Origin: Cyclobacterium plantarum
Lineage (GTDB): Bacteria; Bacteroidota; Bacteroidia; Cytophagales; Cyclobacteriaceae
DNA length: 64,000 nucleotides
Reading direction: 5' to 3'
NCBI RefSeq assembly: GCF_011290685.1
Contig: NZ_JAANYN010000005.1
Span: forward strand, 248,001-312,000
Shown: positions 12,206 to 38,457 of the stretch, in pieces
Layout of the letters: each line of letters begins with the position of its first letter
How positions within the stretch are numbered: position 1 is the stretch's first letter
Notes under the pieces: model-generated
Databases searched by the model: none
What the model was told of the DNA's origin: nothing
The model's input: the letters and a program-made list of their open reading frames with translations, nothing else
Program-made: the position numbers and the translations under genes

Positions 12206-12227
12206 GTTTTCGGAAAAGACGAACGAG

Positions 12228-20914: not shown

Positions 20915-21026
20915 CAAACCTAACACATACTGCATGCAATACTAACGGACATTGGGCAACAGCGGCCTATTGCTAACAAGCACATTAACAAACTATAAAT
21001 TAATACCTTTTTTAAAACCACAACAG

Positions 21027-21800
21027 ATGAAACCTAAATTCGTCAAGATCAGCGATTGGATAATTGATAAAATCAGGTCAGGGGAGCTCCTCCCCGGCGA
21101 TAAAGTTCCATCAGAAAACGAACTGATCCAAACTTTTGGCGTCAGCAATACGACCGCCCGTAAAAGTCTCCAGCAGATCGAATCCAAGGGTTATGCCCAA
21201 CGCATCAAGGGTAAGGGTACTTTTGTATTGAACAAAACGGAAGACCACCACCTGCTGCGGGTATTGGGTTCTATAGACGCAACGAGACGAGGGTTTGATG
21301 AAGGGCTCAAAGTGGAAGGATTTCAGCCAAAGACGGTGGTATTGGAAAAGACCATTCTGGACCACGGAATCTCTACTGAGATTAGCGGAAAACACTACAT
21401 CATGAAGGGACCGGTACTCAAGGTGCATCAGTTGAGGTATGCAGATGACCTGTTGCTCAAGGATGAAACCAAATACATTTCTATCAGGCTATGTCCCAGG
21501 ATAAACATGCTTTCTACCGATCTGTCTTATTTTAAGGTGTATGAGGACAAATACAATCACAAAATCTCTGATATCAAGCAAAATCTAAGTACCATCATCC
21601 TTCCTCCTGATGACAGTACCAATTATTTTGAAGCCCCGGAAGCCCTGCCGGTTTTCATATTGGATAGTGTGGTAATGTGCCAACCCGGAGACGTGCTGGA
21701 GCTGGAAAAATCATTGTACCGCGGTGACAAATACAAATTTGCCATTATTGCCCATCCGGAGTACAATGAGATTGTCCATTCAGGAACAAAAAAGGTATGA
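21027..21800 (+). CDS. GntR family transcriptional regulator with UTRA domain
   Basis: The start at 21027 (MKPKFVKISDWIIDKI) is preferred over the open upstream codons because it begins at the usual point of a GntR winged helix. Residues 1-70 form the DNA-binding domain (PSENELIQTFGVSNTTARKSL, then RIKGKGTFV). Residues about 85-250 form a UTRA ligand domain of the HutC/FarR subfamily. The 257-aa length is typical. These repressors release DNA on binding a sugar or metabolite. It precedes the MFS, isomerase and SusCD genes in the same direction, and so probably controls that locus. Confidence 0.88.
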   Translation: MKPKFVKISDWIIDKIRSGELLPGDKVPSENELIQTFGVSNTTARKSLQQIESKGYAQRIKGKGTFVLNKTEDHHLLRVLGSIDATRRGFDEGLKVEGFQPKTVVLEKTILDHGISTEISGKHYIMKGPVLKVHQLRYADDLLLKDETKYISIRLCPRINMLSTDLSYFKVYEDKYNHKISDIKQNLSTIILPPDDSTNYFEAPEALPVFILDSVVMCQPGDVLELEKSLYRGDKYKFAIIAHPEYNEIVHSGTKKV

Positions 21801-22111: not shown

Positions 22112-23368
22112 ATGAGCCCAAAAATCCGCTGGTACATATTGATCCTGGTGTTTATAGCCACCGGCCTGAATTTTCTTGACAGGCAGGTGTTGTCTATGAC
22201 AATCATTAAAATTCAGGAGGAGTTGCAAATTTCTGATGTGGAATATGGCTGGGTCAATACTGGTTTTTTGATCAGTTATGCGCTAATGTTTACAGTAGGA
22301 GGTCGTCTGATAGACAAGGTAGGCGGAAAGTTGGGCCTGGGCTTGTCGGTAGGCATTTGGTCAATCGCCAGTGCGCTTCACGGTGTCATGAGCAATTTTT
22401 ACCATTTGCTGGGATTTAGGTTTCTTCTGGGCATGGGAGAGGGGGGCTGTTTCCCAGGGGCTGCCAAGACGGTGTACGAATGGTTTGATAAAAAAGAACG
22501 GGCACTGGCCAATGGAGTTGCCATTGGAGGAGCGGCTATAGGAGCGGTCGTAGCTCCTCCCCTGACCATAGTGATATCCGGACAATATGGATGGCGCTGG
22601 GCCTTTATCATTCCAGGAATTGTAGGAGTGGTATGGGTCATTGCCTGGTTTGCCCCATCCTGGAAAAAAAGCCTGCACGCGGTTTCACAAAGGGAAACAA
22701 AAAGAGAAGCAAGCCCATTTCAAGTTCCCTTGCTCCAATTACTAAAGAACCGAACCGTACTAGCGTTCATTCTGATCCGATTTTTATTGGACCCGGTATT
22801 TTATTTTTTGATGTTTTGGGTACCCAAATACCTCAACCAGGAACGTGACCTGTCTTTTGAAAGGATAGGAGAACTCTTTTGGATTCCTTTCCTGGCCCTC
22901 GGACTGTCAAATATCATGGGTGGATGGTTCTCGGACAAGCTGGTATCCCGAAACCTGACGATAAATGCTGCCAGGAAATGGGTCATGGGTTTTGCTGCGG
23001 CACTCACGCTGGTGGCTCCATTTATCTCCACTGTATCCTCTGTAGAAGTGGCCATTTTGCTCATGTCCCTGATGATGCTTGCCCATGGTTTCTGGATTAC
23101 CAACTACATCACAGCCATAACAGACATATTCGGTAAATATGCCACTTCCACGGTGGTGGGACTTTCGGGAACGGCGGGAGCGGTTTCCGGCATGATCCTG
23201 AATCCGGTGATAGGCTGGGTTGCCCAAAATCACTCTTACGGGCCTTTATGGCTGGTGGCGGGGATCATGTACCCATTGGCGTTTGTAATACTGCTGGTTT
23301 TTGTTCCGAAGATTACCTCAATGGAATTTGCAGCAAATGGGAAAATGGGCCATGTATTGAATGAATAG
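22112..23368 (+). CDS. MFS transporter, ACS (hexuronate/sugar acid) type
   Basis: A 418-aa inner membrane transporter with twelve hydrophobic helices. The family pattern of ExuT/GudP-like anion:cation symporters is visible: LNFLDRQVLS in helix 1, the GGRLIDKVGGK loop between helices 2 and 3, and the GMGEGGCFPGAAKTVYEWF motif around helix 4. Such proteins import hexuronates or related sugar acids with protons. Uronic acids occur in ulvan-like glycans, which fits the locus, but the substrate is inferred. The isomerase gene begins 33 bp after it. Confidence 0.88.
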   Translation: MSPKIRWYILILVFIATGLNFLDRQVLSMTIIKIQEELQISDVEYGWVNTGFLISYALMFTVGGRLIDKVGGKLGLGLSVGIWSIASALHGVMSNFYHLLGFRFLLGMGEGGCFPGAAKTVYEWFDKKERALANGVAIGGAAIGAVVAPPLTIVISGQYGWRWAFIIPGIVGVVWVIAWFAPSWKKSLHAVSQRETKREASPFQVPLLQLLKNRTVLAFILIRFLLDPVFYFLMFWVPKYLNQERDLSFERIGELFWIPFLALGLSNIMGGWFSDKLVSRNLTINAARKWVMGFAAALTLVAPFISTVSSVEVAILLMSLMMLAHGFWITNYITAITDIFGKYATSTVVGLSGTAGAVSGMILNPVIGWVAQNHSYGPLWLVAGIMYPLAFVILLVFVPKITSMEFAANGKMGHVLNE

Positions 23369-23401
23369 CCGTTGAAATTTCAAATTTTTAAACATAGAAA
23401 A

Positions 23402-24895
23402 ATGAAAAAGCCGATAAAAGATGTAAAGTCCGGGTCTGATACCTACCAGCTTGAAAGGCGCATGGAATCAAAACCCAGAATAGGGGTGTTTGGCGTTGGG
23501 TATTTCAAATATTGGTCTCAGTTTGACGGATTATTGGAAGATCTTTTGAAAAAGCAAGGGGTATTCCTGGAGAAATTAAAAAAGCACCAGGTAGAAATCG
23601 TTGATTTTGGACTGGTAGATGATGCCCAATCCGCCTATGCTTTGGTGCCTAAACTTAAAGCTGCTAATCTTGATTTGATTTTTTGTGACATGCTCACCTA
23701 TGCTACTTCCAGTACTTTTGGGGCCATTATCAAAAATATGGAGGTTCCCATTGTTCTGGTTGCCCTGCAGCCGGACAAAGCCATGGACTATTCCCGTGCC
23801 TCAACCTACATGCAATTGTATAATGACGATATCTGTTCCCTTCCGGAATTTGCCGGGGTGGCAGTAAGGTTTGGGAAACAGGTGCCCGAGGTCATCATAG
23901 GTACACTTCATGATGATCCGGAGGCAGAGGCTTTGATTGGGGAATATTGTCGGATTGCGAAAGTTTTGCATGGGCTGAAAACAGCCAGGATCGGCCATAT
24001 AGGGCATCCCATAGAAGCCATGCTGGACATGCATACGGATGCGACCATGCTTACTGCTCATTTTGGTGTACATGTGGTGCAGTGTGAGGCCAATCAAATC
24101 GTTCACCAGTATGTCAACCAGGTAAGCGATGCGGAAGTAACCCGGGAAGAAAAGCGCATACTTTCATTCTTTGATACGCCGGACCCGGTATCTGACCCCA
24201 TTTCCGAAAAATTAAAGCCAGCCGATTTAAGTGTGGCTGCAAAGGCATCTCTGGCCCTGAAGAAATTCATTGAGAGTGAAGAGCTAGATGGTTTGGCCTA
24301 CTACTATAATGGAGAGGACAACAGCCCTACCCAATTGGTCATGTCCAACCTGATCGTGGGCAACTCCCTGCTGACTAGTTCTGGTTTTCCGATGTGTGGG
24401 GAATCTGACCTTAAAACTTGCCTGGCCATGTTTATCATGGACCGCCTGGGGATCGGTGGAAGTTTTGCAGAGTTTCATCCCGTAGATTTTAAAGAAAACT
24501 TTGTACTGGTAGGGCATGATGGTCCGCACAATATCTCCATCGCTCAGGGGAAGCCAGTCTTGCGGAGTTTAAAGAAATACCACGGTAAGCCTGGCTTTGG
24601 TGCAGGGGTAGAATTCAAGATCAAGGAGGGGCCCATTACCATGCTGAGCATCAGTTCAACTTACCAGGGAAAATTCAAATTTGTAATGGCCGAAGGAGAA
24701 TCGGTGGAAGGCCCCATTCCTCCTACTGGGAATACCAATACCAGGGGCTTCTTTAAACCCGATGTGCGGACCTTTCTTACCAAATGGGTCAAGGAAGGAC
24801 CCACCCACCATTTTGCCCTGGGTATTGGTCATCATGCCGGCAGCATCCAAAAAATCGCCAATTACCTGCAAATCGAATCGGTGATTGTCTCATAA
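23402..24895 (+). CDS. L-fucose/L-arabinose isomerase family protein
   Basis: A 497-aa cytoplasmic protein with the AraA/FucI fold. The ATG at 23402 is used rather than the TTG at 23372. The N-terminal Rossmann part begins RIGVFGVGYFKYWSQF; the metal and substrate motifs are in the second half (CGESDLKTCLAMF, with an early E; FAEFHPVDF; VGHDGPHNISIA; then GIGHHAGSI at the end). It is likely to interconvert an aldose and a ketose released from the imported oligosaccharide; L-rhamnose, L-fucose and L-arabinose are all possible. Placed between the transporter and SusC, 29 bp before SusC. Confidence 0.82.
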   Translation: MKKPIKDVKSGSDTYQLERRMESKPRIGVFGVGYFKYWSQFDGLLEDLLKKQGVFLEKLKKHQVEIVDFGLVDDAQSAYALVPKLKAANLDLIFCDMLTYATSSTFGAIIKNMEVPIVLVALQPDKAMDYSRASTYMQLYNDDICSLPEFAGVAVRFGKQVPEVIIGTLHDDPEAEALIGEYCRIAKVLHGLKTARIGHIGHPIEAMLDMHTDATMLTAHFGVHVVQCEANQIVHQYVNQVSDAEVTREEKRILSFFDTPDPVSDPISEKLKPADLSVAAKASLALKKFIESEELDGLAYYYNGEDNSPTQLVMSNLIVGNSLLTSSGFPMCGESDLKTCLAMFIMDRLGIGGSFAEFHPVDFKENFVLVGHDGPHNISIAQGKPVLRSLKKYHGKPGFGAGVEFKIKEGPITMLSISSTYQGKFKFVMAEGESVEGPIPPTGNTNTRGFFKPDVRTFLTKWVKEGPTHHFALGIGHHAGSIQKIANYLQIESVIVS

Positions 24896-24924: not shown

Positions 24925-27900
24925 ATGAAAACAGCTTTCAAAATTTCGGTGGTTCTAATGATCCTGGGGATCTTTCCCGGCCATTATAACCTGTTTGCGC
25001 AAGTCGCTGATCGGTTGAACATCAGCGGAACAGTGACGGCCGCAGAAGACGGTAGCACTATTCCGGGAGTAACCGTATTGGAGAAAGGCACCTCCAACGG
25101 CACCGTGACGGACATTGATGGAGAATTTCAGATCGACGTAAGCAGTACCAGCTCCGTTTTGATCTTCTCTTACGTAGGGTACATTACTGAGGAGGTTCCG
25201 GTTGGCAGCCAGAATGTAGTGAATATTCGATTGCGGACTGATCAAAAACAACTGGATGAAGTAGTGGTAGTAGGTTATGGTACCCAACGAAGAAAGGATT
25301 TGAGTGGGTCCATTTCCCGGATCACATCTGAGGAGTTTTTACAGCCCTCCTCAGTTAGTTTTGACCAGATGTTGCAGGGAAAGGTTCCCGGAGTACAGAT
25401 CAACCAAACTTCAGGTGCTCCAGGTGGGAATGTGAATATTCTGGTAAGGGGCGTAAGTTCCATTACAGGAGGCAACCAGCCACTATATGTAATTGACGGG
25501 TACCCGGTCGATGGTGGAGGCAATACGGATATGAGTGGTTATGGCGGATCCAGCTTTTCTTCGGAAAACATGGCTTCCAACACATCCAACAGGATCAACC
25601 CTCTCACTTCCATCAATCCATCGGATATTGAGTCCATCGAAATATTAAAGGATGCTTCTGCTACGGCAATTTATGGTTCAAGGGGCTCCAACGGAGTGGT
25701 CATTATTACCACCAAAAGAGGATCTTATGAAAAGGCACAAATAAACCTGGATATATCACATGGTTACCAGGAAGTGGCTAACAAATTGGATATGATGAAT
25801 GCGCAGCAGTACGCAGAATTTGTAGCAGATGGCAGAGACAACGCCTGGGTATTTGCAGGAGGAAACATTGATGACCCCAATTCGGTGCGAAGTGTGGCAA
25901 CACGGGTAAGGCCGGAGTTCAGAAACCCTTCATCCATTACTACTGACACCGACTGGCAGGATGTCATTTTCAGGACAGCTCCTGTCAGTAATATTCAGCT
26001 TTCTTCCAGAGGGGGGACAGACAATACCAATTTTTTTATCTCAGCCGGCTATTTTTCTCAGGAAGGAATCGTCGTTAATTCTGATTACAACCGATTTAAC
26101 TTGCGGGTGAATTTTGATGCCCAGATCACCGATAATATCCGCGTCGGAACATCTACGTACGGTTCTTATGGTTATGGGCGTTTTGCCAATACCGAATCTC
26201 ATTACGGACAAGGAGGGCTTCTTTCAAATGCACTGGCCGCATCACCCACTATTCCTGTTTATGATGATGAAGGGAATTATTATTTTGACCAGGCGGATGT
26301 TACTGACGGCTTGGGCTTTCTGGCCAATGTGCTGGCAGTAAGTGAAGGGACACAGGACAGAAGGAAAGTGATGGATGTTTTTACCAATAACTACCTGGAA
26401 GTAGATTTAACAGAAAACCTGATGTTCAGGACTTCTGCCGGAGTAAATTTCACCTCCAATAATACGCGTTTATGGCGGTCAAATGCTGTTCCATTGTATA
26501 CCTCTCTGAATTACCCTGCGACCGCAGGTGCTACCAAAATCGAGAGTTTGAATTGGCTAAATGAAAACACACTTAACTATAATCGGATTTTTGATAACAA
26601 GCATTCTCTCAATGCAGTAGTTGGTTTTACCGCTCAGAAAAATAGCAGTGACAGGCTATCTGCAGGAGCTTCTGATTTCCCTACTAATTATGTGACTTAC
26701 CTGTCGGGAGGAATTGTGAATGCAGGTACCCAAACCTTGAATGAATGGTCACTGATGTCACTGATGGCAAGGGTTAATTATGCTCATGACGGCAAATATT
26801 TGTTTACCGCCACCATTAGACGGGATGGCAGTTCCCGGTTTGGCAGCAATTACAAATGGGGATCGTTTCCTTCGTTTTCAGTAGGATACAATATATCCGA
26901 AGAGGAGTTTCTTAGCAATGCAGATTTTCTCAGTAATTTAAAACTGAGGGCCAGTTATGGTATTTCGGGTAATAATCAAATCGGTAACTATACCCATATT
27001 GGGTTATTGTCTACCACACGCTATATTAATAATAGCGGATTGATTCCGGGTTTGGTGCCGAGCAGTTTGGCCAATGACGACCTTACATGGGAAATATCGA
27101 GACAAACCAATTTTGGTTTGGATTTGGGCTTGTTTCAGGACAGGATAAACCTCACGGCAGACGTGTACCGTGACCTCAAAACAGACCTGCTCTTGGCCGT
27201 TCAGTTGCCAGCGGCTTCAGGATTTACAAGTTCCACCCAAAACATTGGCGATATTGAGAACAAAGGGCTTGAGTTGGGGTTGAATACCATTAATGTCAAC
27301 CAAACCAATTTTGGTTGGAACAGTAACTTTACATTTACGGCCAATAGAAACAAAGTATTGAAATTGGCCACTGAGGGTGGAAGAATAGCTACCTCCTCCT
27401 TTCAGGTCACTCAGGTAGGATATCCTGTTTCCAGTTTTTTCCTAATCAACAAATTAGGCGTATTCATGACAAGTGAGGAGTTGGATGGTGCGGCGTTGTT
27501 TCACCCAAGGACCCAGGCTGGCGATCTTAGGTTTGAAGATGTGGACGGAAATGGTGTCATCAATCAAAACGACCGGAAAATAGTAGGAGATCCCTGGCCA
27601 GATTTTGTATGGGGAATGGATAATAATTTCAGGTTGGGGGCATTTAGCCTCAATGTTTCACTTGTGGGATCACAAGGTGCTCAAACTTATTTGATGTCTG
27701 GTGGCTCCTTGATGGGTTCTAATAGTGTGCAAAATGGGTTGGCGATTCAGGACCGGAGGTGGCGATCAGAGGAAAATCCCGGGGATGGGATTATCCCCAG
27801 GGCCATCCGAAGTAACTATGCCAACGGTTTTGGTACTTCTTCCCAATTCCTATTTGATGCCTCATTTGTGAGGTTAAGAAACGTCATGTTGGGATATGAA

Positions 27901-28104
27901 ATGCCGCAGGAGCTGGTGAGCAGGTTCAAGCTAACCAGATTAAATGTGTATGGCAATATTGCCAATCTTTACACCTGGACCGACTATCCGGGATACGACC
28001 CGGAATCTACTACTACGGGAAATAATGTGGTCAATGCAGGATTGGACTATTTGAACTACCCGCTTCCACGTACCTATACACTTGGTCTTAAAATAACCCT
28101 ATAA
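24925..28104 (+). CDS. SusC/RagA-type TonB-dependent outer membrane transporter
   Basis: The start at 24925 gives a signal peptide (MKTAFKISVVLM...LFAQ) and 1059 residues. In order: a carboxypeptidase D-like domain (residues 30-110, GTVTDIDGEFQIDV), the signature LDEVVVVGYGTQRRKDLSGS, the plug (residues about 125-240, with VPGVQINQTSGAPGGNVNILVRG and SIEILKDASATAIYGSRGSNGVV), and the 22-strand barrel. It imports oligosaccharides through the outer membrane using TonB energy, together with SusD encoded 16 bp downstream. Substrate is inferred from the surrounding enzymes. Confidence 0.95.
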   Translation: MKTAFKISVVLMILGIFPGHYNLFAQVADRLNISGTVTAAEDGSTIPGVTVLEKGTSNGTVTDIDGEFQIDVSSTSSVLIFSYVGYITEEVPVGSQNVVNIRLRTDQKQLDEVVVVGYGTQRRKDLSGSISRITSEEFLQPSSVSFDQMLQGKVPGVQINQTSGAPGGNVNILVRGVSSITGGNQPLYVIDGYPVDGGGNTDMSGYGGSSFSSENMASNTSNRINPLTSINPSDIESIEILKDASATAIYGSRGSNGVVIITTKRGSYEKAQINLDISHGYQEVANKLDMMNAQQYAEFVADGRDNAWVFAGGNIDDPNSVRSVATRVRPEFRNPSSITTDTDWQDVIFRTAPVSNIQLSSRGGTDNTNFFISAGYFSQEGIVVNSDYNRFNLRVNFDAQITDNIRVGTSTYGSYGYGRFANTESHYGQGGLLSNALAASPTIPVYDDEGNYYFDQADVTDGLGFLANVLAVSEGTQDRRKVMDVFTNNYLEVDLTENLMFRTSAGVNFTSNNTRLWRSNAVPLYTSLNYPATAGATKIESLNWLNENTLNYNRIFDNKHSLNAVVGFTAQKNSSDRLSAGASDFPTNYVTYLSGGIVNAGTQTLNEWSLMSLMARVNYAHDGKYLFTATIRRDGSSRFGSNYKWGSFPSFSVGYNISEEEFLSNADFLSNLKLRASYGISGNNQIGNYTHIGLLSTTRYINNSGLIPGLVPSSLANDDLTWEISRQTNFGLDLGLFQDRINLTADVYRDLKTDLLLAVQLPAASGFTSSTQNIGDIENKGLELGLNTINVNQTNFGWNSNFTFTANRNKVLKLATEGGRIATSSFQVTQVGYPVSSFFLINKLGVFMTSEELDGAALFHPRTQAGDLRFEDVDGNGVINQNDRKIVGDPWPDFVWGMDNNFRLGAFSLNVSLVGSQGAQTYLMSGGSLMGSNSVQNGLAIQDRRWRSEENPGDGIIPRAIRSNYANGFGTSSQFLFDASFVRLRNVMLGYEMPQELVSRFKLTRLNVYGNIANLYTWTDYPGYDPESTTTGNNVVNAGLDYLNYPLPRTYTLGLKITL

Positions 28105-28120: not shown

Positions 28121-29554
28121 ATGAAAAGATATTACATATATATAGTTTGCTGCATATTAATGTCGGCTTGCTCTGATTTTCTGGAATTGGAGCCTGAGCA
28201 TCAGATCAGTGAAGGCTCGTTTTATCAAAATGTCAACGATTTCGAAACTGCTTTAATTGGGAGTTATTCCGGGTTACAAAACCTTCACAGCACCGCGTTG
28301 GTATATTTGGGTGAACTCACTACTGATAATGCGGAAATTCAATGGACATCGCCCACTGTTTCGGAAGTGGAGTTGGACGAAGTGAATTTTACCCCTGCCA
28401 ACGGCTTTCTGAATACCGTTTGGTCGCTGTGTTTTACTACCGTGTCCAGATCCAATAATATTCTCAACCGGTTGGACGATGTGGAAATGAGTGCATCGGC
28501 AAAGGATCAGATCCGGGGAGAGGCACTGTTTTTAAGGGCATACGGCTACTTTCACCTGGTAAGGACATTTGGACAGGTTCCTATAGTGGATGTTGCTTTC
28601 AGAAGTCCCGCAGCGATAAATTCGTACGACATGTCAAGAAAACCTATTGAGGAAGTATATGCCCTGATTGAGCAGGACCTCACCCAGGCTGCCATGCTAT
28701 TGGAAGGGGTAAATGGTTTGGGAAAATCCAGGGCTTCAACCGCTGCGGCAAAAACCTTGCTAGGGAAGGTCTACCTGACTACTCAGGAATATGACCTGGC
28801 CGCCAGCATTCTGAAGGAAGTGATAGATAGCAACGCCTACACCCTCAACGAGGATTACAAAAGCTTATTTAGTCCGGGAAATGATGATCTGGATGAATCT
28901 ATATTTGAAATTAAATTCATGTCTGGTAACCTGGGCGTGGGCAACGGTTTCTCCAGTATTTTTACGCCTGCCCGGTTTGATATGGATATTTTCCCGAATC
29001 AGATGCAAGGTTCCGGAAGGGTGCTTCCTACTCCTGATATGGCAAATGCCTATGAAACCGGCGATCTAAGGAGAGAGGCTTCGATTGGTGACTCGGTGCT
29101 TTTGGTTACCGGAGAATACGAAGATGAATTGTATGGACTTAAATTTGTAGATTTTACGACAGGTGTCCAGGGAGATGGAGGAGTGAATTTTACTGCGCTT
29201 AGGTATGCAGACGTATTATTGATGTACGCAGAGGCGATTAACCAGACAGGAAATACCGGGGAATCATTGGAATACCTGAATAGGGTGCGAAATCGTGCCG
29301 ATTTGGAAGATTTATCAGGCTTGTCTTCAGATGAGCTGTCATTGGCATTGGAACAGGAAAGGCGGGTAGAATTTTTCCTGGAGGGACACCGTTGGTTTGA
29401 TCTGGTAAGAACAGGCAGGCTTTTACCGGTTATGAACGGGTATTTTCAGCAGAATAACATGAATTTTACAGTGGAGGAGCATAATTTGGTGATGCCGATA
29501 CCCCTGAGGGAAATCGACATCAATCCTGACCTAGGACAAAACACCGGGTACTGA
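28121..29554 (+). CDS. SusD/RagB-type glycan-binding lipoprotein
   Basis: A 477-aa surface lipoprotein with the lipid cysteine at residue 17 (ILMSAC). The N-terminal FLELEPEHQISEGSFYQN and the TPR helices (RGEALFLRAYGYFHLVRTFG) are typical of SusD, as are LRYADVLLMYAEAIN and ERRVEFFLEGHRWFDLVRTG. It caps the SusC barrel and binds the glycan. The stop codon overlaps the next start (ATGA), so the 838-aa protein downstream is translationally coupled to it. Confidence 0.95.
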   Translation: MKRYYIYIVCCILMSACSDFLELEPEHQISEGSFYQNVNDFETALIGSYSGLQNLHSTALVYLGELTTDNAEIQWTSPTVSEVELDEVNFTPANGFLNTVWSLCFTTVSRSNNILNRLDDVEMSASAKDQIRGEALFLRAYGYFHLVRTFGQVPIVDVAFRSPAAINSYDMSRKPIEEVYALIEQDLTQAAMLLEGVNGLGKSRASTAAAKTLLGKVYLTTQEYDLAASILKEVIDSNAYTLNEDYKSLFSPGNDDLDESIFEIKFMSGNLGVGNGFSSIFTPARFDMDIFPNQMQGSGRVLPTPDMANAYETGDLRREASIGDSVLLVTGEYEDELYGLKFVDFTTGVQGDGGVNFTALRYADVLLMYAEAINQTGNTGESLEYLNRVRNRADLEDLSGLSSDELSLALEQERRVEFFLEGHRWFDLVRTGRLLPVMNGYFQQNNMNFTVEEHNLVMPIPLREIDINPDLGQNTGY

Positions 29555-32070
29555 TGACCACATTCATGAGGTACGGGTTACTTTTCGTGTGCCTGCTTAT
29601 TGCATGGCACACGAACGCACAGGATAATCTTAAGGGAAAGCCGTTCAACAACATTACGTTGGAGGCTTCCCTAAAGCCTTTTAAGGTTAACGAGAAGGCG
29701 TATATTCGGGCGGTCGCCCATGAAATGTTTACCCAGTGGCAATCCTTACTCCGGCATGCTGATACCGTTTCCGTCATGTTATGGACCGGCGACGGGTCAG
29801 AAATACTGGATTATAAGGGCAATAAGTTTCAACCTTTGGAATGGGCGATGTACATGGGAAACCCGAATACGGAACATGAAGTGGGATCAGGGCCAGAATC
29901 CCTCTCCCTTCATGAAAGAGCCCTTTTGTATCGGGAAAATCCTCCGGAATTCAATTATGGGGACCTGGCTTTTATCGTTAAATCCCTCAAAGAAGCAGGT
30001 AGAAGAATTACGGGTAAACCGATTCTGGTAGGAGCCACTTTTGATCCAGGGCCGGAATTCGCCAAATCCCCTTTTAAATATGAAAAACACCCGGAAATAT
30101 TGGGTGGCAATGCCATGGGGCACAAAACCTTTGTGAGCAGTTATGCTGTATTGGAAGGTGATTCCGAAACCTATGCTGGCTTTCCTGACGGTATTCCCGA
30201 CGAGACACCGTTTGGTACTTTCTTTGGCCGGCAGAGCCAACATTTTCTTACCGATTTAGGCTTTGATTATATCTGGTTCAGCAACGGGTTTGGGTTTGGA
30301 GCAGAAGGATGGTCTGCCACAGGGGCCATTTTTTCCGGGAAAGATTTTCAGGAAGAAAAGCTCAACCCTGCCGCAGGAAAAGTATTGGAATTCTGGAAGC
30401 TTTTTCGTCAGGAATGTCCGGATTTTCCCATTCAAACCCGCGGAACAAATCTTTCCGTAGGCACTGACCTGGCCAGGGATGCGGTCGATTTGAAAGGAAT
30501 CTATGAGGGAGGATTTAACATGTTGCCTCCGCCTAATTCTCCATGGGCTGCTCTGGATGGCGATTTTGGGTTAGAGTTGGCCGGATACATGTCCAGAATG
30601 GCTGAATTGCCTGATTCCAGGTTTCCTTTTAGGTACTACACGCATGACCCATGGTGGATCAATAGCCCTTGGCTCGACAGGTATGGGCGGGAACCGCATG
30701 ACATTTACCTGCCGATGTCAGTAGGAAGAATTGATGAAAATGGAGAAATGGGTGTTCCCAGCCATCTGAATTTCCTGACCATTGATGATACTTATGGGAA
30801 TATGCCTACGCAGGTACCTGATGAAGTGATCCCTCATATTCTAAAGGCCAGGTATGACCTGCCTACATCCCCAGGTCCGTTGGTTTGGGTGTACCCATTT
30901 GACGAGTACCATGATTGGGCAAAAAATGAGGACGGAAGGTTACCAGAGGTATATTATGGTGATTGGTTTATCCGGCAGGCCATCAATTCCGGTCTGCCAT
31001 TGAATACGGTTATTTCTACGACATCTTTTCAGGAAGTAAACGTAAAAAAGTCCGGGATATTTAAAGAATCGGTGCTGGTTACCATTGCCCCGGCAAAAGA
31101 TTCGCGCTATGAGAAGGCCTTAATGGAGTTTGTGAAAAATGGAGGCAAACTCATTGTATTCGGGCCGATGGATCATTCGGGCCCCGAATTTATGGATTTT
31201 ATCAATCTTACTAACTTAGCTCCTTTAAAAGGTGAAATGCGATTGGTTTCCAGGGTAAATGAAGATCTGGTGGAGAAGAATGCTCCTGGTTTGATTAACC
31301 ATAGGTCTTTATTTTCCGGCGGAGGGTTCCGTTCGAAAATGAGTGATCCCGAAGATGAATATTCAAGAAAACTGCTTCATGTGGAGCAATCGGGCCAGTT
31401 AAGAGACATGGCCTGGGTTCGGGCCCATCCGGATTGGAAGGGAGGTAAAGTTTTGTATTTTAGAGGGACCAACTCCAGTGATTTTACGGGAGGCAGGCTA
31501 TTGACCCCGGATGATCCGGAAGAATATGTAATTGTTCCAGGATTACTTCGAAAGATGTTGTCGGCATTTGGAATGAACCTCAAGGTTGAAAAACAGAATA
31601 TTTCGATTAAAGATCCGGTGCTGACCATCAACCGATCGGACAATGCCTTTATTTTCTCCGGGTATAATCCGAATTCTACCGTTAAGCAATATTTTAAATT
31701 TGAACAGGGGGCACCATTGCTGTTGGGTCTGGAAACGATACTTGAAGAGGGCCATTCCACATATACCATGCCTACCGCATGGCACAGGGAGTGTCGGGCT
31801 TTTGTGGAGCAGGAGTCTGGTATGCTCTCCTTTAAGGAGCTACATTCAGGTCAAAAAGGAATTGAAAAGCGGTACCAGGTGAGCGGATTAAAGAACGGCA
31901 CCCTAAGGTTTTATCCCCAGGACGCTGTCACGAAGGATGATTTGCAGGTTTTTCTTAATTCCGGCTATCCCTGGAAAAGCGGACAGGTCCAGTTTACTGT
32001 AATTAATGACGAAAGAGGATCCTATGTAGAAGTAAGTAATGTTACCGGAACAGTGGTGTTTGCCTGGTAA
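29554..32070 (+). CDS. secreted 838-aa protein of unassigned family, glycosidase candidate
   Basis: Exported (signal peptide residues 1-23; Met5 is an alternative start). I do not recognise a named family. Residues about 30-500 look like an alpha/beta barrel that begins with the strand ITLEASLKPF and contains several acidic or aromatic patches of the kind seen in glycosidase active sites (VMLWTGDGSEI, FDPGPEF, YIWFSNGFGFG, YTHDPWWINSPW, VWVYPFDEYHDW). Residues about 505-560 resemble a glutaminase-like Rossmann domain (VTIAPAKDSR...GGKLIVFGP), as follows the barrel in GH42-like and GH106-like enzymes, and the C-terminus is beta-rich. It shares a start/stop overlap with susD and precedes a sulfatase, so an enzymatic role on the same glycan is likely but unproven. 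Confidence 0.7.
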   Translation: MTTFMRYGLLFVCLLIAWHTNAQDNLKGKPFNNITLEASLKPFKVNEKAYIRAVAHEMFTQWQSLLRHADTVSVMLWTGDGSEILDYKGNKFQPLEWAMYMGNPNTEHEVGSGPESLSLHERALLYRENPPEFNYGDLAFIVKSLKEAGRRITGKPILVGATFDPGPEFAKSPFKYEKHPEILGGNAMGHKTFVSSYAVLEGDSETYAGFPDGIPDETPFGTFFGRQSQHFLTDLGFDYIWFSNGFGFGAEGWSATGAIFSGKDFQEEKLNPAAGKVLEFWKLFRQECPDFPIQTRGTNLSVGTDLARDAVDLKGIYEGGFNMLPPPNSPWAALDGDFGLELAGYMSRMAELPDSRFPFRYYTHDPWWINSPWLDRYGREPHDIYLPMSVGRIDENGEMGVPSHLNFLTIDDTYGNMPTQVPDEVIPHILKARYDLPTSPGPLVWVYPFDEYHDWAKNEDGRLPEVYYGDWFIRQAINSGLPLNTVISTTSFQEVNVKKSGIFKESVLVTIAPAKDSRYEKALMEFVKNGGKLIVFGPMDHSGPEFMDFINLTNLAPLKGEMRLVSRVNEDLVEKNAPGLINHRSLFSGGGFRSKMSDPEDEYSRKLLHVEQSGQLRDMAWVRAHPDWKGGKVLYFRGTNSSDFTGGRLLTPDDPEEYVIVPGLLRKMLSAFGMNLKVEKQNISIKDPVLTINRSDNAFIFSGYNPNSTVKQYFKFEQGAPLLLGLETILEEGHSTYTMPTAWHRECRAFVEQESGMLSFKELHSGQKGIEKRYQVSGLKNGTLRFYPQDAVTKDDLQVFLNSGYPWKSGQVQFTVINDERGSYVEVSNVTGTVVFAW

Positions 32071-32144: not shown

Positions 32145-33575
32145 ATGCGTTTCGATAACTTATCCTATCTGTTCTCAATCCTTATAATCGGGGTATTCTT
32201 ACCTGGATGTTCCGAAAAAGGCGAAGAGAAAGCAAAGCCAAATATCCTGATCATACTTACCGATCAGCAAACCAATGATGCCATCAGTTATTTGGGCAAT
32301 CCAAATTTACATACGCCTGCAATGGATCAGTTGGCAGCTGAAGGTACCTATTTTACAGCGTCTTATTGTACCAGTCCGGTGTGCGGGCCTGCCAGGAGCA
32401 GCCTGATTACAGGAATGATGCCTCATAAAACAGGTGTGGTCTGGAATTCCACACATATTGATTCCTCCGTGCCCACGATTGGCCATCTTTTTCAAGATGC
32501 AGGATATCAAACAGCCTGGGCAGGAAAGTGGCACCTGCCGCAATCCTACCCTGCCAAAGACAATATGGATTCCGTGTCGGGGTTTAAAGTGATTCCCTTT
32601 CAGTCTCTGGATGAGGCCTGGGACCTGGGTGAGGACACTGACGGACCTATTGCAGATGCAGCGGTAAATTATATTCGGGAGTATAACAGTGAAAATCCCT
32701 TTCTTCTGGCCGTTTCCCTTCACAATCCGCATGACATTTGCCATGTGCCGAGAAGGCCTGATGAGTATGCCAAAGCTGACGAGTTGGATACGCTCCCTCC
32801 TTTGCCTCCGAATTTTGGAATTGCCGAAGATGAGCCGGAATTCCTTGACGAAAAACGGTTGATGGACCATTATGGGGATGAGCTGTTGTTAACCAAAGAC
32901 TACAGCCCCGAAGACTGGCGGGCCTACCTGTACCATTATTACCGGTTTACGGAGATGGTAGACAAAGAGATAGGAAAAATAATGGAGGCACTTAAATCCG
33001 CAGGGCTGGATGACAATACAATTGTAGTCCTTACCAGCGAACATGGAGATGGTGCCGCTGCGCACCGCTGGGCAGCCAAATTGAGTTTATATGAGGAGGC
33101 AGCTACGGTTCCCTTTATTATTCGCTGGAAGGGGCATGTCCCCTCCCGAAGTATAAACCGGGATCAGTTGGTCTCGGGAGTAGACCTGGCGCCAACCTTA
33201 TTGGATTATGCCGGTGTCGGAAATAATGCCCAATTTACCGGCAAAAGCCTGAGGCCGGTGTTGGAAGATCCCCGGGAGAATTTAAGGGACTATTTGGTCG
33301 TGCAGTTGGCCGATGATAAACTGGATTCCACCAGGCATGCAAGAATGATTCGGAATAAGCGCTTTAAATATAACCTGTATAATCAGGGAGAAAGAAACGA
33401 GCAATTGTTCGATTTGTGGAAGGATCCGGGAGAAACAACCAATCTGGCCTATGAAGAAAATTATCTGTCTGTCAAAAACACCATGAAGGCAGCATTATCA
33501 GCATGGATCAGGGAAATCGGCGATCCGTTTCTGGAATGGCATCCCTTGCCGGAACACAGCTCGCTTACCCAATAG
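32145..33575 (+). CDS. lipoprotein S1 sulfatase
   Basis: A 476-aa sulfatase anchored as a lipoprotein (FLPGC, Cys22). The activation motif is C80-G-P-A-R84 in YCTSPVCGPARSSLITG, with the N-terminal metal pair LTDQQ (one Asp replaced by Gln, as in several S1 subfamilies), GKWHLP, LHNPHD and a C-terminal SEHGDG metal site. Surface anchoring beside SusCD suggests it removes sulfate before or during import. 74 bp after the unassigned protein and 32 bp before the GH106 gene. Confidence 0.92.
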   Translation: MRFDNLSYLFSILIIGVFLPGCSEKGEEKAKPNILIILTDQQTNDAISYLGNPNLHTPAMDQLAAEGTYFTASYCTSPVCGPARSSLITGMMPHKTGVVWNSTHIDSSVPTIGHLFQDAGYQTAWAGKWHLPQSYPAKDNMDSVSGFKVIPFQSLDEAWDLGEDTDGPIADAAVNYIREYNSENPFLLAVSLHNPHDICHVPRRPDEYAKADELDTLPPLPPNFGIAEDEPEFLDEKRLMDHYGDELLLTKDYSPEDWRAYLYHYYRFTEMVDKEIGKIMEALKSAGLDDNTIVVLTSEHGDGAAAHRWAAKLSLYEEAATVPFIIRWKGHVPSRSINRDQLVSGVDLAPTLLDYAGVGNNAQFTGKSLRPVLEDPRENLRDYLVVQLADDKLDSTRHARMIRNKRFKYNLYNQGERNEQLFDLWKDPGETTNLAYEENYLSVKNTMKAALSAWIREIGDPFLEWHPLPEHSSLTQ

Positions 33576-33607: not shown

Positions 33608-36600
33608 ATGAATACAAAAATCAAATACATCCTTTTCCTTTCCGGTTTTTTTGCCGGGCTTATTTTGCCTGGTTTTGGACAAAATAGCCCGGAATATGAA
33701 AAGTTTCACAGAGGGTTTCAAACCCCGCCTCCCGATGCCCACCCCATCGTTTACCATTGGTGGCTGGGTGGGCATGTAGATAGCCTGCGGTTAAAGGAAG
33801 AAATACGTGCATTCAAGGAAGCCGGAGTATCTGGGTTTACCATATTTGAAATCGGATCCAGAGATACAATTCTGGTCGGCACAGGTCCGGAATTTTTGGG
33901 AGAAGAATCCTTGAAAACTATCCAATTTGCGGTGGAGGAAGCCGGAAAGTTGGAGTTGGAAGTAGGCTTAAATACGGCCAGTAGTTGGAATGCGGGAGGG
34001 AACTGGCTGACCCCAGAGCATGCCGCCAAATCCATTTATCAATCTAAGGTCAATCTTTCCGGTGGCAAAAGACAGAAAATTACCATTCCCTTTCCCGAAA
34101 TACCGGAAAGGGATCCAAGAGGAAGAAAGCGGATGATAGAATTCGGAGCGGATGGTAAACCGGTTTATGCAGCCGAAATCGCCCTGCTGGCGATTCCCGA
34201 ATTTCCCGGAGAAAGTCTGGCAGATACCAGCCAAATCAGGGATATTTCAGAATTTTTCAATCCTAAAACGGAGATTCTGGACTGGGAGGCTCCGGAAGGA
34301 GAATGGAAAATTGTACGATATGTGAGTTCTAATTCCGGTGAAAACCTGATTCTGCCCAGTAAATATTCCGCAGGCCCCATTGTGGACCATTACGATGCCG
34401 AAGCCACAGCCTTCCATTTTAATTATATCATCGACAGATTGCAATCGGTGTTGGGGGACCTGAGACAAACTGCCCTCAAAAGCCTTTACATGGCCAGTTA
34501 TGAAGCCAGGGGTTTTACCTGGACCCCCACGCTACCGGAGAAATTCAAGTCGATCAATGGATATGATGTCAAAAAACTCCTGCCAATCTTATTTGAAGAA
34601 GCGGAATTTTCAGCCGAAACAACAGCCAATTTCCAGGCTGATTTTCAGCGGACCTTGTCCGAACTGATGATCCAAAATTTTTACATGAAATCCAAAGAAG
34701 TCTGCAATGCCCATGGCCTCAAAAACAACAGTGAGGCCGGAGGACCCGGTCTTCCCCTGCACAATGTTCCCGTGGAACCGTTAAAAGCTTTGGGAAAAGG
34801 GCTCGACATCCCCAGAGGTGAATTCTGGATCAATCACGGCCGGTACAACGAAGACGGGATGGATATTTTACGGGTGGTGAAGGAAGTCTCCTCGGCCTCT
34901 CACATATATGGGCTGGGAATTGTTGAAATGGAAGCCTTCACTTCATTCCAACACTGGCAGGAAGGCCCTTTTGAGATGAAGCCGATCGGAGACCGGGCTT
35001 TTGCTGAAGGTATGAATAAAGTGGTGGTGCATGGATCTACCCACAATCCGGACGGAACAGGTGTGCCCGGTATCGTCTACCATGCAGGAACCCATTACAA
35101 TGACAAGAGGGTATGGTGGCCGAAGATCAGGCCTTTTAACGAATACCTGGCCAGGGTTTCCTATATTCTTCAGGAGGCTGATTTTAAAGCTGATTTCCTT
35201 TACTATTATGGGGATACCATTCCCAATTATGGCGGGCATAAACGTGGCAGGTTCTCCCCGGGGGCGGGTTATGACTACGAACTGGTCAATACGGAGATAC
35301 TCCTTGGGCTGGAAGTGCAGGAAGGCAAGATCATTAATCCCATAAATGGAGCGAAATTCAGCGTGCTGGCATTGACGGAGGAGCATAAAATCCATCCGGA
35401 AGTTTTGCTTAAGCTGAGAGATATGGTAGAAAAGGGGGCGGTAATCATCGGGCCCCGACCAAAAGAGATTGCTCGCAGAAAATTGAAGCCAGGAATGCCT
35501 GATATGAATGGATGGCTGGAAGAACTTTGGCAGGCGGATGGGCCAAAAGAATTTACGGAGGGAGCATCAATGATCTACCAGGATCGCGACCCTACAGGGC
35601 TGATGCAGGCAATGGGAATTGTGCCTGATTTCGATTATGCCGACAAGTCATTCTATACACTGGACTATACCCATTACCAAAAAGGGGAGATGGATTTCTA
35701 TTTTATCGTCAATACCACAGGGGATTGGCTTTCCAGAAATGTGCATTTCCGGCAGCAGGATAAGGTGCCGGAGATATGGGATCCGGTTAGCGGCCAAATT
35801 GTGCCGGTGGCTGTGTATGAACAAAAAGAAACCCAAATCAGCCTTCCCCTTACATTGGCTCCCTACGAAAGCAAGTTTGTCGTATTTGGGCCGGGAAAGG
35901 CTGAAGCGCATTATTCACAAATTGCAGGTGCTGGTTTGCATCCGCCAAAAATAACCTATTCGGCGGACGGCATAGAGATATGGGAAGAGGGGATCTTTGT
36001 ATTGAGTGAAGAAGCCGGTTCTCAGGAAATACATAGCAGTATTCATGAAAGTAATATTGATGGAGCCTGGGAGGTGTTTTTTCCGGAAGGCTGGGGTGCT
36101 CCCGAAAAAGCTGTGTTTCCGGAGCTGACATCCTGGACTTCATCTGATGTGGAGGGGATCAAATATTTTTCGGGAACAGCCCGTTATGAAAAGCAATTTG
36201 TACATGCCCTTCATCCTACGGACCAGGCCGGTGCCAAGACTTATCTGGATTTGGGAGATCTTTCACATGTGGCGGAGGTCTGGCTGAATGATGAGCGTTT
36301 GGGCATTACCTGGGCCAAACCTTATCGTTTTGATGTGACCGATCTACTTCGCCCGGGGATCAATACGCTACGCGTCGAGGTAGCCAATACCTGGTCCAAC
36401 CGGATTACCGGAGACGCCATTACTGGAGGAAACTTTACCCAAACGCATATCGAGGAAACCAATATCAAAGGGATCAGCCATATCCGGGTGCCCTGGGAGG
36501 AAGTGCCATTGATACCTTCGGGATTGTTTGGACCGGTTATGCTCCGTACGGTTGTCCCGGTCAGTTTACCCCAATCGCTACAGACCGCAAGGGTATTCTC

Positions 36601-36817
36601 CGATAATATGGTGCTCCAAAGGGATCAGCCGATCCCCGTTTGGGGTGTCGGGACAGCGGGTGATGAAGTGGCCGTCCGTATGGGAAACAAAACAGCCAGG
36701 GCAAGGGTGTCATCCAACGGAAACTGGGAGGTAGCTCTACCGGCCTTCCCAGCCGGCGGACCCTATTCCATGAACATCGAGGGGGCAAAAAAAAAGTCGA
36801 ATTCAACAACGTTCTGA
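33608..36817 (+). CDS. GH106 alpha-L-rhamnosidase, first frame of a split GH106-acetylesterase gene
   Basis: The ATG at 33608 gives a signal peptide (MNTKIKYILFLSGFF...GFGQ) and 1069 residues before the zero-frame stop. GH106 is recognised by WWLGGHVDSLRLKEEI at the start, ASYEARGFTWTPTLPEKF in the barrel, NNSEAGGPG, VVHGSTHNPDG and the C-terminal galactose-binding-like sandwich (LDLGDLSHVAEVWLNDERLG). The last 75 residues begin a sialate O-acetylesterase domain (ARVFSDNMVLQRDQPIPVWG) that breaks off at an A9 run (36787-36795). Reading continues in the -1 frame in the next entry. GH106 enzymes remove alpha-L-rhamnose from branched glycans. Without the shift, the product would be a complete GH106 with a short unfolded tail. 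Confidence 0.88.
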   Translation: MNTKIKYILFLSGFFAGLILPGFGQNSPEYEKFHRGFQTPPPDAHPIVYHWWLGGHVDSLRLKEEIRAFKEAGVSGFTIFEIGSRDTILVGTGPEFLGEESLKTIQFAVEEAGKLELEVGLNTASSWNAGGNWLTPEHAAKSIYQSKVNLSGGKRQKITIPFPEIPERDPRGRKRMIEFGADGKPVYAAEIALLAIPEFPGESLADTSQIRDISEFFNPKTEILDWEAPEGEWKIVRYVSSNSGENLILPSKYSAGPIVDHYDAEATAFHFNYIIDRLQSVLGDLRQTALKSLYMASYEARGFTWTPTLPEKFKSINGYDVKKLLPILFEEAEFSAETTANFQADFQRTLSELMIQNFYMKSKEVCNAHGLKNNSEAGGPGLPLHNVPVEPLKALGKGLDIPRGEFWINHGRYNEDGMDILRVVKEVSSASHIYGLGIVEMEAFTSFQHWQEGPFEMKPIGDRAFAEGMNKVVVHGSTHNPDGTGVPGIVYHAGTHYNDKRVWWPKIRPFNEYLARVSYILQEADFKADFLYYYGDTIPNYGGHKRGRFSPGAGYDYELVNTEILLGLEVQEGKIINPINGAKFSVLALTEEHKIHPEVLLKLRDMVEKGAVIIGPRPKEIARRKLKPGMPDMNGWLEELWQADGPKEFTEGASMIYQDRDPTGLMQAMGIVPDFDYADKSFYTLDYTHYQKGEMDFYFIVNTTGDWLSRNVHFRQQDKVPEIWDPVSGQIVPVAVYEQKETQISLPLTLAPYESKFVVFGPGKAEAHYSQIAGAGLHPPKITYSADGIEIWEEGIFVLSEEAGSQEIHSSIHESNIDGAWEVFFPEGWGAPEKAVFPELTSWTSSDVEGIKYFSGTARYEKQFVHALHPTDQAGAKTYLDLGDLSHVAEVWLNDERLGITWAKPYRFDVTDLLRPGINTLRVEVANTWSNRITGDAITGGNFTQTHIEETNIKGISHIRVPWEEVPLIPSGLFGPVMLRTVVPVSLPQSLQTARVFSDNMVLQRDQPIPVWGVGTAGDEVAVRMGNKTARARVSSNGNWEVALPAFPAGGPYSMNIEGAKKKSNSTTF
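36790..36796 (+). other. A-AAA-AAG slippery heptamer at the frame break
   Basis: Zero frame reads GCA AAA AAA AAG TCG. A slip of one base back on A AAA AAG gives GTC GAA TTC, exactly the frame of the acetylesterase half. The same heptamer works in dnaX of E. coli. A purine-rich GAGGGGG lies just upstream (36779-36785). A one-base loss from an A10 run, by mutation or sequencing error, would look identical. Confidence 0.5.
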
Positions 36818-38457
36818 TAGGAGATGTCTGGCTGGCTTCAGGACAATCCAATATGCAGCATCCCATTGGAGGTTGGGAATGGATCCCCCATTCTGAAATC
36901 AGGAATGCTGCTGAAGAATTAGCGGACAGCGATTACCCGGAAATACGGCTTTTCGATGTGCCCCTATTCCCCTCACCAGTTCCGGTGAAGGATCTTTCTG
37001 CTGGTAGCTGGGAAATGGCTGGCCCGGAATCATTGGCTAATTTTTCTGCACCTGCCTGGTTCTTTTCGAAAAAGCTCCACGGGGAATTGGACATTCCGAT
37101 TGGAATCATCCACAGTTCCTGGGGTGGGACCAGTATATTGACCTGGACCAATGAACAGACGCTGCAGGATTTTGTGGACTCCCTGCCACGACAACGGGAA
37201 ACCGATCTGCGGTATTTTCCTCAAACCTGGGGTAATCAGGTTCAGGCCGCAAATGAACATCACCGTATCCGGAGAAACAAGTTGAGTCATCCAGACCCTG
37301 AAGTTAAGCGCCAGATGCTTGAGCCCGGGTATTCCGCAACTGGTTGGAAAGATTTGGATCTTTTTGATGATACAGCGGCACATGGCCAGGTGCTGTGGAT
37401 AAAGCAGCAGGTAAACCTGGAGCAGGAGTTGGCAACCGCAGACCTGACCTTGCAGCTCGGATTCCTGGACAGGCAAAGTCATGTGTATTGGAATGGACAG
37501 GAATTGGGATATTTCCAATACCCAGCACCGATAAGCATCAGGGTGCCTGCAGCCTGGATAGCGGGTGGCATCAACGAAATCACCGTGCGTCTCTCCAACC
37601 CATGGGGAGGAGCTAGCTTTCATGGTGCCCCGGAAAAATATGCCTTAAACGAAACTTCCGGTAATTTTCAATTATCACTTGTTTCCGGCTGGAAAGGAAT
37701 CGAAAATCAGGAACCCATTCCTCCTGCAAGGCCCTTTTATGTAAACGAGCCTTCGTTTTTATTTAACGGTATGATCAGTCCGCTCATTCCCTACGGAATC
37801 AAAGGCTTTATTTGGGACCAGGGTGGTGCCGATGCCAGAAGGCCTGAATTGTATGCGCAGCTATTTAAGCGACTGATTCGGGACTGGAGAGCCTACTGGA
37901 AGAATGAAAAGCTGCCTTTTCTTTTTGTACAAAACACCGGAACCTATTCCAGCCATGAATTTGGAAAAAGGACGTTCGTAAGAAGTCCGCTCCGTGAAGC
38001 GCAGGAAACCGCATTGGAACTTCCTCATACCGGGATGGTAGTTTCCATCGATATTGGGGATCCCTTTGATGTCCACCCCAAAAACAAGCAGGAATTTGGC
38101 AGGCGACTGGCATTACAGGCACTCGAGAAAGTGTATGGACTGAGCGTGGAGGCCGATGGCCCCTATTATGGCTCTCATCAAGTCAAGGCGGATACGGTAA
38201 TTGTCCATATGAAGGATCCGGGGCAGCAATTGGTTTTGGATTGTACCGGTGAATCCTGCGGTTTTGAGCTTGCCGACGCTGATGGAGTATTTCATCCAGC
38301 GAATGCCGTCTTGCAGGGAAATACCATTCGGGTGCATTACGGAGAAGTCACCCAACCCACTGCCATTCGATACGCCTGGGGAGATTATCCGCAGGCAGGC
38401 GTTTTTAACCAGGAAGGTTTGCCGTTGGCGCCATTTAGGGTGACGTTGGCGGATTGA
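36796..38457 (+). CDS. sialate O-acetylesterase (SGNH) half, in the -1 frame of the GH106 gene
   Basis: From 36796 this frame reads VEFNNVLIGDVWLASGQSNM, the beginning of the SASA family with the nucleophile Ser encoded at 36847-36849. The first ATG (36853) lies after that serine, so independent initiation would give a dead esterase; only a frameshift product could be active. The rest is complete: a lectin-like inserted beta-domain (about 37350-37650), the WDQGG block (WYQGE in most relatives) and the closing Asp-His pair (DPFDVHPKNKQEFGRRLA). SASA enzymes remove O-acetyl groups from sugars. Joined to GH106 the product would be about 1616 residues, deacetylating and then cleaving rhamnose. 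Confidence 0.8.
   Translation, partial: VEFNNVLIGDVWLASGQSNMQHPIGGWEWIPHSEIRNAAEELADSDYPEIRLFDVPLFPSPVPVKDLSAGSWEMAGPESLANFSAPAWFFSKKLHGELDIPIGIIHSSWGGTSILTWTNEQTLQDFVDSLPRQRETDLRYFPQTWGNQVQAANEHHRIRRNKLSHPDPEVKRQMLEPGYSATGWKDLDLFDDTAAHGQVLWIKQQVNLEQELATADLTLQLGFLDRQSHVYWNGQELGYFQYPAPISIRVPAAWIAGGINEITVRLSNPWGGASFHGAPEKYALNETSGNFQLSLVSGWKGIENQEPIPPARPFYVNEPSFLFNGMISPLIPYGIKGFIWDQGGADARRPELYAQLFKRLIRDWRAYWKNEKLPFLFVQNTGTYSSHEFGKRTFVRSPLREAQETALELPHTGMVVSIDIGDPFDVHPKNKQEFGRRLALQALEKVYGLSVEADGPYYGSHQVKADTVIVHMKDPGQQLVLDCTGESCGFELADADGVFHPANAVLQGNTIRVHYGEVTQPTAIRYAWGDYPQAGVFNQEGLPLAPFRVTLAD

Follow-up and report, generated by a model that had tools for sequence, protein, structure and literature searches.

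A 64,000-nucleotide stretch of the Cyclobacterium plantarum genome (contig NZ_JAANYN010000005.1, positions 248,001 to 312,000; hereafter the window, whose coordinates are used throughout) encodes an 838-aa protein, here called P1, directly downstream of a susD gene. P1 represents a real, conserved, and undescribed family with a glycosidase-like body, the fold itself being known, and this is probably a new glycoside hydrolase (GH) family when judged against Pfam and NCBIfam, with the activity predicted. We favor with moderate confidence the reading of P1 as an exo-acting glycoside hydrolase that is exported and belongs to a family described in neither database. The features of the gene and of its product are as follows.

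29554..32070, forward strand: P1, 838-aa protein (open reading frame [ORF]; relatives; ratio of nonsynonymous to synonymous substitutions [dN/dS] of 0.08 to 0.10 against two relatives)
29554..29619, forward strand: signal-peptide-like N terminus of P1, codons 1 to 22 (sequence; hydrophobic N terminus of relatives)
29644..30858, forward strand: predicted TIM barrel, residues ∼31 to 435 (AlphaFold2 model; conservation)
30646..30648, forward strand: codon of D365, after the barrel strand numbered 7 (invariant in 44/44 and 12/12 alignment rows)
31006..31593, forward strand: predicted Rossmann-like alpha/beta domain, residues ∼485 to 680 (AlphaFold2 model; subthreshold GLMA_2nd match)
31618..32067, forward strand: predicted C-terminal beta domain, residues ∼689 to 838 (AlphaFold2 model)

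P1 is a genuine gene rather than a chance ORF, since 112 stretches encoding relatives were found elsewhere in a scan of species genomes (the best 80 were kept) and dN/dS is low. The ratio is 0.10 against the copy of a Cyclobacterium sp. (92% identity, dS 0.39) and 0.08 against that of C. lianum (85% identity, dS 1.14), while synonymous sites are saturated in three more distant relatives. The relatives listed in the scan align along almost the full length at 50 to 92% identity (34 to 92% for the entire family), and the names of the sequence records place its members in Bacteroidota, Hydrogenedentota, Planctomycetota, Verrucomicrobiota, and Armatimonadota. The family is widespread but patchy. 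Eight of the 99 genomes searched as relatives (own genome included) carry P1, as does 1 of 395 genomes drawn from the phylum, namely, the window's own, and the P1 profile matches 17 of 291 genomes of the phylum to which the genome of L085 belongs (recorded as Armatimonadetes; the Armatimonadota group below), two of these matches (L134 and L135) being distant and partial. The latter two are related to P1 in the barrel and also carry an F5/8 C domain, and a GH28-like ORF, named by eye, adjoins L134. One P1-bearing record named Sulfuricurvum (L025) is probably a misbinned contig, and Arenibacter palladensis (L054) carries two tandem P1 copies.

Gene order was compared across 80 loci (L010 to L089), searched by tblastn with the window proteins and three representatives (E ≤ 1e-10) in flanks of up to 8 kb, which fell short of 7 kb upstream in 6 loci and downstream in 14. 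Earlier neighborhood clusters took in 88 loci, including L001 to L008 with short flanks; L001 is the window itself, at least L002, L003, L005, and L008 duplicate L010, L011, L016, and L069, and all counts use L010 to L089. Two of the 80, L084 and L085, reappear in the Armatimonadota group as L117 and L119. A preliminary description of the window had placed the 838-aa ORF at 29554 to 32070 directly 3′ of susD, as the ORF and Pfam scans bear out, but had also reported an ATGA overlap that the sequence does not contain: the susD stop codon occupies 29552 to 29554 and the P1 ATG 29554 to 29556, so that the junction reads TGATG with one base in common. An alternative P1 start is possible at codon 5 (ATG, 29566). 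Across the loci, susD lies directly upstream on the same strand in 46 of 80, at gaps of −29 to +349 bases (start codons taken mechanically); the overlap is not a family trait, since the gap is negative in just six of these 46. Signal-like N termini were judged from hydrophobicity without a dedicated signal-peptide predictor, and a hydrophobic N terminus is present in 70 of the 78 relatives scored in the 80-locus set. The eight copies without one include L082, L084, and L085, which start at the barrel, and none of the 14 copies scored in the Armatimonadota group has one. Such signal-less copies would fit a small imported substrate.

Family searches returned no P1 match over a curated Pfam cutoff, the sole match listed at E ≤ 10 being PF22369 GLMA_2nd (E 0.049; 13.8 bits against a cutoff of 27.7; residues 484 to 538), and none in NCBIfam, in agreement, within these two databases, with the preliminary statement that no family signature is recognized. 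HMMER filters discard most matches above an E value of ∼0.1, and weaker matches to either database may have been missed. The GH42 and GHL10 (Cwp19) profiles of Pfam are not among the P1 matches listed, and the GH106 profile PF17132 does not match P1, unlike the neighboring gene (2.7e-111). When 44 members of the family were scanned, GLMA_2nd appeared below threshold in 11 (E ≤ 0.1, best 0.0089) and DUF4350 weakly in 5 (best 0.0098), and three further Pfam families were matched by one member each. Among Protein Data Bank (PDB) sequences, the single protein found no match at E ≤ 10, and the P1 profile found one weak match, to a Rossmann 2x3 fold protein (E 0.16). The profile revealed no paralogue in the own genome at E ≤ 1, and a plasmid search gave one partial match that, used as a query, retrieved itself alone. 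No description of the family was found in the open-license literature searched; GH195 was considered as a published match and rejected, its paper relating GH195 to GH99 (PMC13063451).

The AlphaFold2 model of P1, built from 44 sequences (mean predicted local distance difference test [pLDDT], 88.3; predicted template modeling score, 0.89), agrees with the layout of barrel, glutaminase-like alpha/beta domain, and beta-rich tail that had been proposed from the sequence. Barrel strands were assigned by DSSP at residues 31 to 39, 69 to 77, 157 to 163, 239 to 242, 293 to 295, 358 to 361, and 404 to 407. A further strand near residue 320 was not drawn by DSSP and was placed by eye through an alignment with a Nonomuraea protein; strand numbers 7 and 8 rest on that placement. 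In a Foldseek search, the best matches were the GH42 beta-galactosidases 5e9a (1.9e-14) and 4uoz (1.1e-13) and the GH164 protein 7omi (2.0e-13), with TMq values of 0.37 to 0.42. The VIA comparison ranked Cwp19 first for the barrel (Z 18.8), followed by the beta-1,2-glucosyltransferase 7vky of Ignavibacterium (Z 16.1, aligned over residues 29 to 749) and then by PgaB, a chitinase-like protein from an insect, and beta-amylases; GH42, the exo-beta-D-glucosaminidase GlmA (6jow, 14.2; 8oug, 14.0), and the fucosidase 6tvk (14.1) stand at Z ∼14, and GH164 6t6g is at 13.9. We take the family labels to be GH14 for beta-amylase, GH151 for 6tvk, and GH35-like for the Ignavibacterium enzyme. A model of the barrel only (pLDDT 77) found similar neighbors, with Cwp19 again first by 2.7 Z units. 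Most of the neighbors among the matches listed are TIM-barrel glycosidases or related transferases, and some, such as glucosyltransferases, CTP synthase, and a BZR1-type beta-amylase, are either inactive or no hydrolases; a common fold alone shows no function for P1. The model, its structural neighbors, and the lack of Pfam and NCBIfam matches over cutoff together support the preliminary view of P1 as a secreted, glycosidase-like protein outside the families of these databases.

The order of the predicted domains (TIM barrel, alpha/beta, beta) appears to match that of GH42, with residues ∼28 to 749 aligned. The two GH42 structures resemble P1 in three-domain order and give the best Foldseek E values, but superpose at a root mean square deviation (rmsd) of ∼10 Å over the whole length with template modeling (TM) scores below 0.5, and P1 lacks a Pfam GH42 match, carries Asn-Gly for Asn-Glu after strand 4, and has Asp for the expected Glu after strand 7. 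The same domain order is found in the GH164 beta-mannosidase Bs164 (6t5o, 7omi, and 6t6g; Z 13.9), which its report describes as barrel, trimerization, and beta-sandwich domains with catalysis by a Glu on strand 4 and a Glu on strand 7 (Glu160 and Glu297) (PMC7105311); P1 is without the strand 4 Glu and has an Asp on the strand numbered 7. Archaeal GlmA, a GH35 enzyme (6jow and 8oug), shares the three domains and, through the subthreshold match, a GLMA_2nd-like second domain. According to the GlmA paper, its catalysis uses the strand 4 Glu and a second Glu, and it carries Asp-Glu where GH35/GH42 beta-galactosidases carry Asn-Glu (PMC6566704); P1 has neither motif, and its second domain does not reach the curated GLMA_2nd cutoff. 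The GHL10 domain of Cwp19 (5oq3) gives the highest barrel Z scores against P1 (18.8 and 17.4 over ∼300 residues) at 9 to 10% identity and an rmsd of 4.3 to 4.4 Å, with no match among those listed by Pfam. In its paper, GHL1 to GHL15 are said to have been named in 2011 as likely TIM-barrel glycosidases, GHL10 has a Gly at the strand 7 Glu position, and the solved part is the barrel alone, unlike the three-domain P1 (PMC5765458). A barrel protein of Nonomuraea gerenzanensis (L090) is matched by the P1 profile at positions 53 to 229 (25% identity in a wide alignment) and keeps E37, E181, and D365 but not E83 or E251. It consists, from a start set by eye, of the barrel only, with no second or third domain in frame, unlike P1, and adjoins an ABC-type sugar-binding protein (named by eye).

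Conservation was read from an alignment of the window's P1 with copies from 43 of the 80 loci, picked for spread (44 rows); L016, L082, and L088 were omitted for stop codons inside the matched stretches. Invariant in all 44 rows are E37, D80, E83, D164, E168, E181, D203, D305, D365, D411, E424, and E451; E37, D80, E83, D164, E168, D365, and D411 are among those of the barrel, where invariant carboxylates stand in its strands or just after them. In a wider set of 12 rows (20 to 57% identity), D365 and E181 are kept in all, D164 is conserved in 11 and replaced by Glu in 1, E37 is kept in 11 (with one gap), D80 and E168 in 10 each, D411 in 9, and E83 in 8. D365 (44/44 and 12/12) stands at the end of strand 7, the site of the Glu nucleophile in clan GH-A, in a numbering partly set by eye. 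E251 was tried as a strand 4 acid/base and rejected; it is invariant in the 44 rows but is Glu in only 5 of the 12. Judged from these sequences, P1 would either use another catalytic pair or be no catalyst of the clan GH-A type. Because the strand 4 acid/base of that clan is missing, we propose that an alternative pair may lie among D365 (strand 7), D164 (strand 3), D411 (strand 8), and E37 (strand 1). The structure prediction suggested in the preliminary description as a check thus yielded the TIM barrel, and in place of a pair of active-site carboxylates it offers candidates among the invariant acids.

These comparisons bear on whether P1 is a divergent member of an existing CAZy family, related for instance to GH42, GH164, GH35, or GHL, beyond the reach of Pfam and NCBIfam. 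The shared three-domain order and the subthreshold GLMA_2nd matches of 11 members among the 44 (E as low as 0.0089) speak for such membership. The lack of any listed Pfam match other than subthreshold GLMA_2nd, the empty NCBIfam search, the missing PDB sequence match (for the profile, just E 0.16), and the absent Asn-Glu motif speak against it, and we regard it as unlikely.

The genes around P1 in the window are as follows.

20952..21800, forward strand: GntR/UTRA regulator (PF00392 and PF07702; start codon uncertain)
22112..23368, forward strand: major facilitator superfamily (MFS) transporter, D-galactonate-transporter-like (PF07690; TIGR00893, 225 bits against a cutoff of 395)
23372..24895, forward strand: ISO, divergent isomerase of the AraA/FucI superfamily (PF11762 and PF02952 over cutoff, PF24856 just under; start uncertain, with 23459 to 24892 serving as the query)
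24925..28104, forward strand: SusC-type TonB-dependent transporter (PF13715 and PF07715; start inferred)
28121..29554, forward strand: SusD (PF07980, 1.3e-38; PF14322)
32145..33575, forward strand: sulfatase (PF00884, 4.7e-50)
33608..36817, forward strand: GH106 (alpha-L-rhamnosidase family) protein (PF17132, 2.7e-111; start inferred)
36853..38457, forward strand: SASA-type carbohydrate esterase (PF03629; frame open from 36667)

The sulfatase and GH106 genes noted earlier downstream of P1 are thus present, as their PF00884 and PF17132 matches indicate, yet family-wide this context is secondary. Partners of P1 across the 80 loci are ISO (58), SusC (58), SusD (56), MFS (53), a GDSL esterase (51), GntR (48), GH106 (34), sulfatase (15), an Apiosidase-like protein (13), and GH3 (13), making ISO the commonest enzyme neighbor, and the pairing of P1 with ISO recurs in several phyla. 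As defining partners of the whole family, sulfatase and GH106 were accordingly rejected (15 and 34 of 80 against 58 for ISO). ISO occurs together with GH106 in 30 loci and without it in 28, GH106 without ISO in 4, and ISO stands directly upstream of P1 in 12. At E ≤ 1e-5, the window contains no counterpart of the GDSL, Apiosidase-like, or GH3 genes; a link to apiose was considered and dropped, the Apiosidase-like protein being present in few loci and not in the window. Eleven loci (L029, L040, L042, L045, and L057 to L063) hold varied sets drawn from GH3, an Apiosidase-like protein, a GMC-type oxidoreductase with a small subunit (by eye), and a xylose-isomerase-like TIM barrel protein. P1 proper is present in 15 genomes of the Armatimonadota group, and 11 of them have ISO within a flank of ∼1.5 kb. 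ISO is missing from that flank in G489, G502, G769, and G709, the loci of G489 and G769 being cut by contig ends; G710 has two P1 copies, one with ISO and one without, and in L119 isomerase-like genes flank P1 on both sides.

Presence of the two genes was also compared among the 99 genomes searched as relatives. All eight P1-bearing genomes have ISO at ≥73% identity, and ISO at ≥70% is found in 19 of the 99 (one a partial match); the chance of this co-occurrence would be 4e-7 if genomes were independent, but many belong to one genus, so that the figure is no true probability. Eleven genomes have ISO at ≥70% but no P1, and the ISO loci of 10 of them were examined (L100 to L109; G057 was left out). 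P1 and the window's SusC were not found in these 10 loci, one of which (L105) has a 30%-identical SusD farther off. It looks as if SusC, SusD, and P1 are gained or lost as a block, since MFS, ISO, and GH106 remain without it in all 10. A sulfatase stands between ISO and GH106 in five of them, and in L109 ISO is interrupted by a stop codon and GH106 is matched only in part.

ISO keeps a GE-D-K motif in the aligned copies and a C-terminal HH in the copies that reach it. It was rejected as the genome's arabinose isomerase, a true AraA being encoded on a different contig (783 bits, cutoff 622). Apart from ISO itself, all fucose-isomerase matches in the own genome fall below cutoff. We propose a pathway in which SusC/SusD would import glycans, P1 would cleave off a single terminal sugar, acyl groups would be stripped by an esterase (SASA in the window, GDSL in 51 of the 80 other loci), the MFS carrier would import the aldose, and ISO would convert the aldose released by P1 to a ketose. 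The sugar is probably not L-arabinose, because the true AraA lies elsewhere in the genome.

Several observations weigh against this pathway and against P1 as an exo-acting hydrolase. Whole-length Foldseek superpositions give TM scores below 0.5 and an rmsd of 9 to 13 Å (top six matches), and the domain packing of P1 therefore appears to differ; loops next to the putative active site are modeled with low confidence (residues 250 to 252 and 371 to 377, pLDDT < 50). The Asn-Glu motif of clan GH-A is missing, with N244-G245 in its place in all 44 rows (position 244, N in 10 and D in 2 of the wider set; position 245, G in 9, Q in 1, and S in 2; strand 4 end set by DSSP of the model without residue-level superposition), and catalysis cannot therefore be carried over from the nearest folds. 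Neither ISO nor GH106 is found in 18 of the 80 loci, some with cut flanks. In 10 of 10 P1-less loci, all from the window's own genus or family, ISO adjoins MFS and GH106; GH106 may therefore supply its sugar, which counts against P1 as the sole source. The own genome also has one P1 and a second ISO-like gene (38% identity), which lies among ORFs that by eye resemble SusC, SusD, and sulfatase genes (L110; genome G000, contig C6, ∼11065 to 12459). Finally, the ISO copies compared do not retain the first metal-site Glu of AraA, so that the activity of this divergent enzyme is inferred.

The P1-less loci lead to a second alternative, compatible with the exo-hydrolase reading, in which P1 would complement or replace the alpha-L-rhamnosidase, both enzymes yielding one kind of rhamnose-like sugar, with ISO as the isomerase for it. 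It would explain ISO beside GH106 without P1 (10/10) as well as ISO beside P1 with no GH106 inside the flanks (28/80), and RhaA has no match in the own genome. The genome does hold a match to an RhaI-type L-rhamnose isomerase (534 bits, under the cutoff of 646.75), the activity of GH106 is assumed from its family name, and the flanks extend to 8 kb at most; we think it rather improbable. A third alternative, that P1 is a carbohydrate-breakdown enzyme other than a hydrolase (transglycosylase, phosphorylase, or lyase), draws on the highest-Z three-domain match being the glucosyltransferase 7vky and on catalytic residues that depart from clan GH-A. Most of the structural neighbors listed are hydrolases, and a phosphorylase is unlikely because of the signal-like N terminus in 70 of 78 relatives, and we give it little weight. 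That P1 is a noncatalytic surface glycan-binding protein, of the type often found after SusD, as the 46 of 80 loci with susD immediately before it might suggest, is very improbable given invariant barrel carboxylates and signal-less copies adjoining the isomerase in the Armatimonadota group.

Two further observations concern the window itself. A run of nine A residues lies where the GH106 and SASA esterase genes meet (36787 to 36795) and recurs in L010 (15234), L011 (15240), L106, and L019 (15795). Up to the run, the GH106 frame stays open in the window, L010, L011, and L106, and the esterase goes on in another frame there; L019 has the run in frame, with the two joined in one 1,607-aa ORF. 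This suggests slippage that would yield short and fused products, and may alternatively reflect a plain split gene. Sulfatase-like stretches also occur at 3303 to 4637 (28.5% identity) and 14813 to 16174 (25.4%).

With exported exo-acting hydrolysis as the preferred reading, we tentatively extend it to a bolder and somewhat doubtful proposal: P1 may found a new GH family with a GH42-type body and a different catalytic pair, set in a phylum-crossing and so far undescribed module with ISO for one aldose handled by neither AraA nor rhamnose isomerases. Across its wide distribution the family is well conserved, and it has no name in either Pfam or NCBIfam; both the sugar and the isomerase to which it points lack an assignment. 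P1 and ISO together offer one joint test, which would show whether a GH42-like body works with other catalytic residues.

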